A stretch of DNA of 64,000 bases, taken from assembly GCF_003568845.1 (NCBI RefSeq), contig NZ_CP030126.1, positions 2,073,001 to 2,137,000 of the forward strand, written 5' to 3'. Source of the DNA: Indioceanicola profundi. Lineage in GTDB: Bacteria > Pseudomonadota > Alphaproteobacteria > Azospirillales > Azospirillaceae. Both the position numbers and the translations under genes were made by a program. Shown one piece after another: positions 36,441 to 62,185 of this stretch (positions are counted from its first letter, which is position 1; the number at the start of each line of letters is the position of its first letter). The notes beneath the pieces are model-generated. The model was given only the letters and a program-made list of their open reading frames with translations. It did not search any database and was not told the DNA's origin.

Positions 36441-37178
36441 TTGCTCTCGCTTCTTCCTTCAGCATCCGTACTTGCCGGCCTTGTGCTGGTCGGACTCTTT
36501 GCCGGCGTGATCCGCGGGCTGACCGGCTTCGGCGCGGCCCTGGTGATCGCGCCAGGATTGACCCTGTTCATGTCACCGGAACTGGCGGTCCCGACCAACA
36601 TGGTGGCGATCTGCGCCACCAACCTGCCGCTGGTCGTCGGCGCACGGCGGGAGGCCGATTATCATTCGGCCGGCTGGTTCTTCGCCGGTTCCGCCATCGC
36701 CCTGCCGTTCGGCGTCTGGTTGCTGGCGACGCTGCCGCGGGAGACGCTGGAATGGGCCATCGGCCTGTCCGTCATCGTGGCCGCCCTGCTGCTGGCCCGC
36801 CCGAAGTTCCGGCTTACCAACGTCACCCGCCCGTTCAAGGTCGGGGCTGGCATGATCGCCGGGCTGATGAACGGGTCCGTCGGGATGGGCGGGCCGCCGG
36901 TGATCCTGACCCTGCTGGCCTCCGGCGTTCCCCCGGTCACCAGCCGGGCGACGTTGATCGTCTATTTCACCGCCATGAATGCCGTCAGCGTGGCGATCAT
37001 GGCGATTGGCGGCCTGATCGACACTCGGATTCTGATCTGGGCCGCCATCATCGTTCCCCCGCTCGCCCTGGGACAGCGAGGCGGCGAAATCCTGTTCCGC
37101 CGCGGCTGGTCAAACCATTTCCGCCCCATCGCCATCGGCCTACTGGTCGCGACCGGCGTGGTGGCTCTGCTCCATTAG
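36441..37178 (+). CDS. TauE/SafE-family (sulfite exporter-like) permease
   Basis: A membrane protein of 245 residues with about seven or eight hydrophobic segments. Family features are GVIRGLTGFGAALVIAPGLTL in the first repeat and GMIAGLMNGSVGMGGPPVIL in the second. Members move sulfonates, sulfite or related anions; the substrate here is unknown. It seems to start at a TTG (36441), since no ATG or GTG precedes the first membrane segment in frame. Confidence 0.85.
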   Translation: MLSLLPSASVLAGLVLVGLFAGVIRGLTGFGAALVIAPGLTLFMSPELAVPTNMVAICATNLPLVVGARREADYHSAGWFFAGSAIALPFGVWLLATLPRETLEWAIGLSVIVAALLLARPKFRLTNVTRPFKVGAGMIAGLMNGSVGMGGPPVILTLLASGVPPVTSRATLIVYFTAMNAVSVAIMAIGGLIDTRILIWAAIIVPPLALGQRGGEILFRRGWSNHFRPIAIGLLVATGVVALLH

Positions 37179-59517: not shown

Positions 59518-60912
59518 CTACGCAGGTCCGACCTGCGCCGCCATCCTCAAATCCTCCACGAACCTCGCATATTCCCGCACCTTGGCGGCCTCGTCCGGCA
59601 GGCGCAGCAGGTAGGAGGGGTGGACGGTGAGCAGCAGGCGACGCCCCTCCCCGATCTCCATCATCCGCCCGCGCTCCTGCTGCACCTTGACCTCACGGCC
59701 CAGCAGGGCGCGGCCGGCGGTGGCGCCCAGCGCCACGATCAGGCGCGGCCGCACCGTGCGTATCTCCTCCTCCAGCCACCAACGGCAGCTTTCGATCTCG
59801 CCGGCATCCGGCTTCTGATGGATGCGGCGCTTGCCGCGCGGGGTGAATTTGAAATGCTTGACCGCGTTGGTCAGGTAGGCGTCCGCCCGCACGATGCCGG
59901 CCTCCGCCAGCGCCCTGTCCAGGACCTGCCCCGCCGGCCCGACGAAGGGGCGGCCGGCCAGATCTTCCTGGTCGCCCGGCTGCTCCCCCACCAGCATCAG
60001 CGCGGCATTCGGCGGCCCCTCCCCCGGCACGGCCTGTGTCGCCGGCTGCCAGAGCGGGCAGCGGCGGCAGGCCTGGAGCCCGCCTTCCGTCCCGCTTCGA
60101 TCCGGCATCGCCCCGCAGCCCCAGCGCTCCGCCCGTGCGGCGGGCAGGCTGGGCACAGTCGCGACCATCTCCGCCGCCCGTGCGGCGGCACCGCGCACCA
60201 GGGGCGTGATGAGCTGGGCCTCCGGCAGGTTGCGCCAGTACTTCTTCGGCATCTCCGACCGCATGGCGGCGACCTTCAGCCGGGCGGGATTGAAGATGCT
60301 GGCGTAGTAGCTCTGCCAATAGGCTTCCAGCGCGTCCTCGTCCGGCACGTCCGCCCGGCGGGCGCCGGGCGTGAAGTGCAGCGTGTCGCCGTCCCAATGC
60401 GCACTGCGCTCGGGCGTCAGGATGGACCAGCGCATGGAGGCGAAGCGGCGGGCGAAGAAGGGCGCGGCACGCTCGACGATGTGGTGGTCCGGCTCGAACC
60501 AGGCGAGATAATGCCCGTCCCGCTCCCGGAAGCGCACGAAGGCATGCATCTTGTGCTCGTCACGCCGCACGGCCTTTTCCAGCGCCATGGCCCGATGGAC
60601 GTCCCGGTCGGAGGATATCTCCAGAAGTGCCGGCTCTTCCTTCGCCAGCCGCCAGAGCAGCCGGTAGAGCAGGCCGAACCGCTCCGGATCGCGGTGGCAG
60701 ACCACGGCATCGGCCAGTTCCAGGAAGCGTCGCGGCACGGTGAAGCCGCCGGCCGCGGTCGGTTCCGGCGGCAGCGCATCCCCGAACAGCCCGGCGCCGC
60801 CATCCGGCCGCCAGTCCACCGCCGCCGGCTCGACCCCGGCCAGGACCAGCCGCCGCGCGGCGGTGCGCCATCCGGCGAGATCGACCGGCCCGTCCAGGGG
60901 CACCGCGTACAT
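59518..60912 (-). CDS. DUF4130 (TIGR03915)-UdgX fusion, uracil-DNA binding protein
   Basis: A protein of 464 residues. Residues ~1-250 are a DUF4130/TIGR03915 domain (probable DNA metabolism protein linked to a radical SAM partner). Residues ~265-464 are a UdgX-type uracil-DNA glycosylase domain: CRRCPLW for the Fe-S cluster, GEQPGDQEDLAGRPFVGPAG at the active site, and the diagnostic loop KRRIH (361-365), whose histidine crosslinks covalently to the uracil site in Mycobacterium UdgX. HPSYLLRL closes the pocket. GAGGGGGT stands before the ATG at 60912. It follows the radical SAM gene by 10 bp. Confidence 0.9.
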   Translation of the reverse strand: MYAVPLDGPVDLAGWRTAARRLVLAGVEPAAVDWRPDGGAGLFGDALPPEPTAAGGFTVPRRFLELADAVVCHRDPERFGLLYRLLWRLAKEEPALLEISSDRDVHRAMALEKAVRRDEHKMHAFVRFRERDGHYLAWFEPDHHIVERAAPFFARRFASMRWSILTPERSAHWDGDTLHFTPGARRADVPDEDALEAYWQSYYASIFNPARLKVAAMRSEMPKKYWRNLPEAQLITPLVRGAAARAAEMVATVPSLPAARAERWGCGAMPDRSGTEGGLQACRRCPLWQPATQAVPGEGPPNAALMLVGEQPGDQEDLAGRPFVGPAGQVLDRALAEAGIVRADAYLTNAVKHFKFTPRGKRRIHQKPDAGEIESCRWWLEEEIRTVRPRLIVALGATAGRALLGREVKVQQERGRMMEIGEGRRLLLTVHPSYLLRLPDEAAKVREYARFVEDLRMAAQVGPA

Positions 60913-60922
60913 CGCCACCCCC

Positions 60923-62146
60923 TCAAGCCGCCAGATCGAGGCTGAGCTGCTCCGGCTTCGGGGCCAGGCGCTTGCGCAGGTCCAACCGGTCCAGGGGGGA
61001 GCGGCCGATCTGCCTGTCCGCGGTGACGATGAAGGGCGCCACCTTGGCCAGCGGCACCCGCAGCCGTCCCAGATCCTCCATCCGCACGGCCTTGTGCCGC
61101 CGGATGGACAGCAGCTTGTCCACCGTGCGGACACCCAGCCCCGGCACCCGAAGCAGAAGCTCCCGGTCGGCCAGATTCACATCCACCGGAAAGCGGTCGC
61201 GGTTGCGGAGCGCCCAGGCCAGCTTGGGATCGATCTGCAGGTCGAGATTCCCCGATTCGGGCACGATCTCCGCCACCTCGAAACCATAGAAGCGCATCAG
61301 CCAGTCCGCCTGGTAAAGCCGGTTCTCCCGCACCAGCGGCGGGGCCTGGAGCGGCAGGGCGGCGCTGCTGTCCGGGATGGGGCTGAAGGCGGAGTAGTAG
61401 ACGCGCCGCAGCCGGTATCCGGCATAGAGGGTGGAGCTGGTCGCCAGGATGCCGCGGTCGTCGGTGCCGTCCGCCCCTACGATCATCTGCGTGCTCTGCC
61501 CGGCCGGGGCGAAGCGGGGAGCCTTGGGACCCTCCTTCGCCTCCTCGATCCTCAGGCGCAGATTGCCCATGGAGCGGCGGATGGCGCGAGCATCCTTCTC
61601 CGGGGCCAGCCGCCCCAGCGACGGTTCCGCCGGCAGCTCGATATTGATGCTCAGCCGGTCGGCATAGCGCCCGGCCTCCGCCAGCAGCTCCGGGGCGGCG
61701 TCCGGGATGGTCTTCAGGTGGATATAGCCGCGGAACCCGTGCTCCTCCCGCAGCAGCTTCGCCACCCGGACCAACTGCTCCATCGTGTAGTCCGGCGACT
61801 GGATGATGCCGGAGCTGAGGAACAGGCCCTCGATATAGTTGCGGCGATAGAAGCCCAGCGTGAGCTTCACCACCTCCTCCGGCGTGAAGCGGGCGCGGCG
61901 GACGTTGCTGGAGCGCCGGTTCACGCAGTAGAGGCAGTCATAGATGCAGAAGTTGGTCAGCAATATCTTCAGTAGGGAGATGCAGCGCCCGTCGGGCGCG
62001 TAGGCATGGCAGATGCCCATCCCCTCGGTGGAGCCGATGGCGCCCATGGCCCCGGCCGAATTCCGCTTCTCCGTCCCGCTGGACGCGCAGGAGGCGTCGT
62101 ATTTGGCGGCATCCGCCAGCACCTCCAGCTTTTCCCGCAGCTCCAT
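60923..62146 (-). CDS. Putative DNA modification/repair radical SAM protein (TIGR03916)
   Basis: A protein of 407 residues. The radical SAM cluster motif is C67-x3-C71-x2-C74 (NFCIYDCLYC). Further cysteines at 20, 46 and 55 might hold a second cluster. The C-terminal part has a helix-hairpin-helix DNA-binding look (LLRVPGLGVRTVDKLLSIRR). The family is defined by its co-occurrence with UDG-like and TIGR03915 genes; the reaction is unknown. An exact alphaproteobacterial LexA box lies 25-39 bp upstream of the start. Confidence 0.9.
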   Translation of the reverse strand: MELREKLEVLADAAKYDASCASSGTEKRNSAGAMGAIGSTEGMGICHAYAPDGRCISLLKILLTNFCIYDCLYCVNRRSSNVRRARFTPEEVVKLTLGFYRRNYIEGLFLSSGIIQSPDYTMEQLVRVAKLLREEHGFRGYIHLKTIPDAAPELLAEAGRYADRLSINIELPAEPSLGRLAPEKDARAIRRSMGNLRLRIEEAKEGPKAPRFAPAGQSTQMIVGADGTDDRGILATSSTLYAGYRLRRVYYSAFSPIPDSSAALPLQAPPLVRENRLYQADWLMRFYGFEVAEIVPESGNLDLQIDPKLAWALRNRDRFPVDVNLADRELLLRVPGLGVRTVDKLLSIRRHKAVRMEDLGRLRVPLAKVAPFIVTADRQIGRSPLDRLDLRKRLAPKPEQLSLDLAA

Positions 62147-62170
62147 CCCCGGCCCCGTTCCCGCTCACTG

Positions 62171-62185
62171 GTTCGCTGTATGTTC
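62171..62185. promoter_or_regulatory. LexA (SOS) box, GTTC-N7-GTTC
   Basis: GTTC (62171-62174), seven bases, GTTC (62182-62185): an exact copy of the alphaproteobacterial LexA operator. It is centred about 32 bp before the radical SAM start codon, where it would cover the promoter (a TATATG-like -10 on the minus strand lies next to it). Confidence 0.75.

Follow-up and report, generated by a model that had tools for sequence, protein, structure and literature searches.

What does a cell gain from a radical S-adenosylmethionine (SAM) enzyme encoded next to a DUF4130-UdgX fusion protein, and why would LexA, the repressor of the SOS response, control the two genes? The question is raised by a locus of Indioceanicola profundi lying in a 64,000-nucleotide stretch of contig NZ_CP030126.1 (positions 2,073,001 to 2,137,000; from here on the window, whose own numbering is used below). 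On the minus strand, a gene for a radical SAM protein of 407 amino acids (P0001, 60923-62146) is followed after only 10 bp (60913-60922) by a gene for a protein of 464 amino acids (P0002, 59518-60912). P0001 reaches 562 bits against the TIGR03916 profile (curated cut-off 343.5) and also matches Pfam Radical_SAM. P0002 consists of a DUF4130 domain (residues 11-232, 60217-60882), with 225.4 bits against TIGR03915 (curated cut-off 112.25) and 144.8 bits against Pfam DUF4130, and of a UdgX domain (residues 234-457, 59542-60213), with 320.6 bits against TIGR03914 (cut-off 189.95) and a match to Pfam UDG as well. A LexA operator (SOS box), an exact match to GTTC-N7-GTTC, is located at 62171-62185 on the plus strand (GTTCGCTGTATGTTC; GAACATACAGCGAAC on the strand of the genes), i.e., 25-39 bp upstream of the radical SAM start codon at 62146. 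This is the arrangement that a preliminary description of the window had given, with the box, the 10-bp gap and a fusion carrying the KRRIH loop, and the profile scores and motif positions bear it out. Comparison with relatives reveals conserved operators, a constant radical SAM-DUF4130 pair, an optional UdgX and a set of invariant cysteines, and it is on these that our answer is built.

The clearest indication of LexA control comes from the orthologous operons. All 58 other alphaproteobacterial loci (13 family groups, with the window's own locus, L004, excluded) carry an exact GTTC-N7-GTTC no more than 110 bp ahead of the radical SAM start; their upstream DNA (6,380 bp in all) contains 59 sites, and the remaining 235,088 bp of the same loci only 6. 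The sub-cut-off matches L008-L011 were left out of this survey, and the distance of the box depends on the start codon, which was taken as the one nearest to the start of the window gene. Most of the 29 loci from other Pseudomonadota have a motif of another type, CTGTN8ACAG, which is exact in 19 of them (19 sites in 3,190 bp upstream versus 4 in 119,893 bp elsewhere). A passage of PMC8565304 gives GGA-N5-TCC, together with another motif with a name starting in CTAA, as SOS motifs of Bacteroidetes. Among 82 mostly Bacteroidota loci (80 from genome contigs and two viral), GGAN5TCC stood in the 200 bp ahead of the gene in 17 (50 sites over 16,400 bp versus 132 in 639,413 bp elsewhere; a control pattern appeared in four loci), CTAAN5TTAG in 22 (22 sites versus 20 elsewhere; none for two control patterns), and one or both in 39; GTTC-N7-GTTC preceded the gene in five. 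Judged by these patterns, the predicted LexA motif of the operon changes with the lineage and its position is kept.

The window by itself would have proved nothing in this respect, because its two exact sites (1.0 expected) are also reached by 27 of 100 shuffled sequences. However, on a matrix of the 59 orthologous alphaproteobacterial boxes, built without the window's own, the operator scores 18.4 (the matrix set has a mean of 21.2) and the second site, at 36677-36691, only 1.5; the latter is probably there by chance. The spacer of the operator starts with ATA, the commonest start among the alphaproteobacterial orthologous boxes. Over the whole genome we counted 116 exact sites, compared to 67 for the reversed control pattern, and one of them lies directly before lexA itself (C1:1380149-1380163, with the lexA match from 1380224). 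Nine genomic sites, picked by their spacer, were read with their neighbors. They included uvrA with a divergent ssb (L095), an imuA-like gene (L099) and a PdeM-like gene (L101), all named from reading the translations. The conserved operators and the same pattern before lexA support the SOS control that had been proposed for the operon, and DNA damage very probably switches the gene pair on, as far as this can be inferred from operators.

Some upstream regions deserve a separate mention. In L047, L048 and L052 (family group f168), which have no known LexA motif, an inverted repeat like GGTCTCATCCAATGAGACC, or a variant of it, is shared upstream, and the Xanthomonas-type LexA motif was not seen there, both by eye. 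Several of the Chryseobacterium loci L107-L118 have, also by eye, a direct repeat of the type TTTTGGAAC...TTTTGAAC where the SOS box of other lineages sits, possibly a LexA motif not yet described. L182, on a contig classed as viral, has an alphaproteobacterial-type box about 20-40 bp before its radical SAM start. A phage origin was considered and dropped, with two viral contigs and ten phage records (eight of them unannotated) that encode a relative making no case for a phage gene.

Which of the proteins, then, is the operon about? We have searched 398 Pseudomonadota genomes, that of the window included, for matches over the curated cut-offs, and found the radical SAM protein in 84, DUF4130 in 87 and UdgX in 78. 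DUF4130 was present in all 84 genomes with the radical SAM protein, and the radical SAM protein in 84 of the 87 with DUF4130. Both families were also matched in the control genome, that of Caulobacter vibrioides. UdgX was present along with 63 of the 84 pairs and was missing from 21, although one of these (G512, locus L070) still has a fused, UdgX-like domain that is degenerate and has lost the loop histidine. The mostly Bacteroidota loci had DUF4130 in 78 of 82 cases and UdgX in none. For 50 of the 80 genome-contig loci the whole genome was searched, and no UdgX over the cut-off appeared in any of these 50, five of them giving weak hits that do not exceed 26 bits. Conversely, UdgX occurred without the radical SAM protein in 15 Pseudomonadota genomes; two of these had DUF4130, and two more a remnant of it (L191, L197). 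Loci from 12 of the 15 were examined. None of the 11 UdgX loci away from a radical SAM gene, one of them in this genome, had an exact box, and all 11 kept the loop histidine. The copy in this genome (C2:1037584-1038222, L184) is a second UdgX gene, with a frame of 283 amino acids, the loop KGKRRLH and no exact box in its 3-kb locus. In the three genomes with DUF4130 and no radical SAM protein (G330, G346 and G415) the box was kept; no radical SAM match was found in the examined loci (L188, L189 and L190) and DUF4130 was shortened in two of them, so that decay seems to hit the radical SAM gene first.

Since the pair persists without UdgX and lone UdgX loci are boxless, the SOS box goes with radical SAM-DUF4130 and not with UdgX. 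A tree of 107 radical SAM proteins requires UdgX to have appeared or disappeared at least 10 times; this was a quick tree, 28 of whose 104 internal branches were left open and which drew warnings of long branches, and on it L002, L044, L045 and L050 were set as UdgX-positive by hand and the degenerate copies (L030, L070) counted as present. By these comparisons UdgX behaves as a module that has repeatedly come and gone. As the general purpose of the operon we reject it, given the pairs without it and the boxless lone copies. Other proteins also appear between the radical SAM and DUF4130 genes: a hemerythrin-like protein in L185, L186 and L187 (one genus group) and a nucleoside-deaminase-like one in L046, named from reading.

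The most informative features of the radical SAM protein are its cysteines. The CxxxCxxC of the radical SAM cluster (Cys67, Cys71 and Cys74; 61925-61948, minus strand) and three further cysteines N-terminal to it (Cys20, Cys46 and Cys55; 61982-62089) are kept without exception in all 170 sequences counted, which include a Fusobacterium copy and many that are closely related to each other. This count left out L007 (cut by a contig end), L183 (partial) and L222 (a blank row, read apart). A Gemmatirosa relative with 39% identity and the same C-terminal helix-hairpin-helix lacks all three extra cysteines, and its 7.2-kb locus has no DUF4130 match, which suggests that these cysteines occur together with DUF4130. 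Three N-terminal cysteines that hold a second, auxiliary cluster are the mark of lipoyl synthase and MiaB, and it is for this reason that we propose 61982-62089 as the site of a probable second Fe-S cluster. In Foldseek the AlphaFold2 model resembles HydE, viperin, MiaB and lipoyl synthase, and in VIA-align lipoyl synthase (8trw; Z 13.5, 3.9 A over 221 residues) stands at the head, tied with HydE (Z 12.6). At the C-terminus (residues about 331-351, LRVPGLGVRTVDKLL, 61094-61156, minus strand) there is a helix-hairpin-helix with a conserved RxPGxG, matched weakly by the NCBIfam RuvA and ComEA helix-hairpin-helix models in 13 and 9 of 68 relatives; it probably binds DNA.

Its constant partner is harder to place. 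The AlphaFold2 model of DUF4130 has a mean predicted local distance difference test (pLDDT) of 83.6, and nearly all the top rows of the fold searches belong to the DHH superfamily (PAP phosphatase, RecJ, Cdc45), with a C-Ala domain besides. The values (PAP phosphatase 8a8k: Z 8.8, 5.8 A, 185 residues; RecJ 2zxr: Z 8.0, 4.2 A, 168 residues) are close to a Z of 8, which is often reached by models without a clear match, and Foldseek gave no match with E < 0.001. A RecJ homologue was rejected, hhalign against 20 RecJ sequences giving a probability of 0.1% and no profile support. Nor did another Pfam family turn up in more than four members (67 proteins, E up to 10). Nineteen positions are conserved in at least 90% of 163 sequences, among them H120, R127, R156, R211, W199, W226 and E231. 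As they hold a single histidine and no aspartate, DUF4130 has no DHH catalytic motif, and the conserved positions look more like a binding surface. We regard the RecJ/DHH-like fold of the model as a weak lead.

In its UdgX domain, P0002 has GEQPG at 309-313, KRRIH at 361-365 (the R-loop, 59818-59832, minus strand) and HPSYLLR at 431, and the loop histidine is found in 60 of the 62 sequences having that column, the window's own included. In M. smegmatis UdgX this histidine is the cross-linking residue (PMC10359453). The assignment to a cross-linking type of UdgX, made already in the preliminary description, is supported by this conservation.

Taking these observations together, we favor, with moderate confidence, the following reading. 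The operon would encode a radical enzyme that is induced in the SOS response, probably has two clusters and works on damaged DNA; DUF4130 would be its partner, and UdgX, where present, would anchor it at uracil or abasic sites. LexA would repress the operon and DNA damage would derepress it. The radical SAM protein and DUF4130 would then form a two-part enzyme for damaged DNA, in which DUF4130, as the constant partner, probably assists in binding the nucleic acid or in presenting it, and the pair would reverse or convert a DNA lesion by means of the 5'-deoxyadenosyl radical. M. smegmatis UdgX is known to excise uracil and to bond to the resulting abasic site. The fused domain would do the same and most likely pin the complex at uracil or abasic sites, or shield them, an accessory and not the reason for the operon. 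In this scheme the induction, the second cluster, the DNA substrate and the role of UdgX are what we infer beyond the alignments. A bolder version appears doubtful to us: a UdgX-independent, two-cluster SOS enzyme carrying out on damaged DNA a radical reaction unlike that of the known repair enzymes (e.g., chemistry with hydrogen atoms or with sulfur from the cluster, as in lipoyl synthase or MiaB), with DUF4130 as a catalytically dead RecJ/Cdc45-like clamp on nucleic acid and UdgX as a module, gained and lost repeatedly, that fastens the complex to uracil or abasic sites.

Several observations weigh against the favored reading. Five of the 29 other Pseudomonadota loci are boxless, and five more have CTGTN8ACAG with one mismatch, which is weaker evidence because 2 of the 29 were also matched, at one mismatch, by a control pattern of like construction. 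One of the boxless loci, L012, is from a near relative of Psychrobacter, and we know of no LexA in Moraxellaceae. Of the mostly Bacteroidota loci, 43 of 82 have neither GGAN5TCC nor CTAAN5TTAG. The contrast case without the extra cysteines is a single sequence, that of Gemmatirosa. The radical SAM model has a mean pLDDT of 73.6 and falls below 50 at Cys20, Cys46, Cys71 and Cys74, so that the second cluster rests on conservation. We found no assay of TIGR03916 or DUF4130 in the open-access literature. Finally, 49 of 58 alphaproteobacterial loci have a DUF4130-UdgX fusion beside the radical SAM gene (11 of 29 in the other Pseudomonadota), and the tie to UdgX may be closer in the Alphaproteobacteria.

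This last point is also an argument for the pathway put forward in the preliminary description, in which UdgX covalently marks or protects uracil or abasic sites, which are then modified by the radical SAM enzyme, or the latter frees the DNA from its adduct with UdgX. The frequent fusion and the nearly invariant loop histidine speak for this pathway. However, 21 of 84 pairs and all 50 of the mostly Bacteroidota genomes searched whole do without a UdgX over the cut-off, UdgX with its loop histidine lives without the radical SAM protein in 15 genomes (11 of 11 loci for the histidine), and the boxes do not follow it there. As a general function it is not supported and we consider it unlikely, although it may possibly operate in the fused systems.

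Two further explanations seem to us rather improbable. A direct reversal of a pyrimidine photoproduct, in the way of spore photoproduct lyase, would fit SOS control, and a passage of PMC3765255 calls the radical SAM proteins associated with DUF4130 SplB-like photolyases, in a set that might modify thymines. No spore photoproduct lyase model was among the 11 NCBIfam matches of P0001, and no such chain appeared in the PDB sequence search or among the best 50 of either fold search, absences that exclude nothing. Against it stands also another radical SAM gene of this genome, SplB/PA0069-like from reading its translation, with its own box (L097, C1:66100-68600, box at locus position 1209); there would thus be two radical SAM genes with an SOS box in this genome, that of the operon and this one. 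The other explanation is an enzyme of the SOS response that alters bases instead of restoring them, by DNA modification or by aiding mutagenesis. The NCBIfam name of TIGR03916, 'DNA modification/repair', speaks for it, as does PMC3765255, where DUF4130 is predicted to be an enzyme related to mutagenesis and is associated with uracil-DNA glycosylases and with radical SAM proteins of the SplB-like kind; on the other hand, we found neither a modified base nor a mutagenesis phenotype in the literature for TIGR03916-DUF4130.

SOS control of the operon is already in print. We take COG4277 to be the TIGR03916-type radical SAM family. Under that name, a passage of PMC8565304 has the family in a COG1573-COG4277 operon of Bacteroidetes, labeled 'UDG base excision repair' and predicted to be under SOS control, and states that such a system had been reported in Verrucomicrobia (2016) and in Alphaproteobacteria (Caulobacter, 2008). 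Excerpts of two other papers are relevant here, one placing CC2333 among four COG1573 genes of Caulobacter (PMC1839093) and one listing a LexA-bound radical SAM protein of Streptomyces whose family is not named there (PMC9380542). What is new in our analysis is the separation of the core from the accessory part, together with the additional cysteines and, as a weak lead, the DHH-like fold. If UdgX is dispensable, it is the radical SAM-DUF4130 pair, and no longer uracil repair, that has to be explained, and the additional cysteines are a direct biochemical handle on this widespread SOS gene pair.

Compared with known systems, the operon shares with the published COG1573-COG4277 operon two genes under LexA. 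The latter has been described as containing a uracil-DNA glycosylase, whereas in the relatives from Bacteroidota that we read DUF4130 is present and UdgX is not (0 of 82 loci, 0 of 50 genomes over the cut-off). The published label may have been carried over from the fused proteins, and the 'uracil-DNA glycosylase' reading in Bacteroidota seems to rest on a domain that these proteins do not carry. The RecJ/Cdc45 DHH superfamily fills nearly all the top rows of the DUF4130 fold searches, with no catalytic DHH motif among the conserved positions and no profile similarity to RecJ, and with spore photoproduct lyase (SplB), the type named in the passage of PMC3765255, the radical SAM protein shares its being a radical SAM enzyme. 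Lipoyl synthase and MiaB resemble it in having three conserved cysteines N-terminal to CxxxCxxC as in all 170 sequences, but their barrel is common to many radical SAM enzymes, the window protein has a helix-hairpin-helix tail, and its cysteines are spaced C-x25-C-x8-C instead of the CX4CX5C of lipoyl synthase. The UdgX domain is like M. smegmatis UdgX, whose crystal structures (6ajo, 6io9 and others) it matches with E down to 4e-53 and with which it shares the GEQPG, KRRIH and HPS motifs; unlike it, the domain of the window is fused behind DUF4130, in an SOS-boxed operon with a radical SAM protein.

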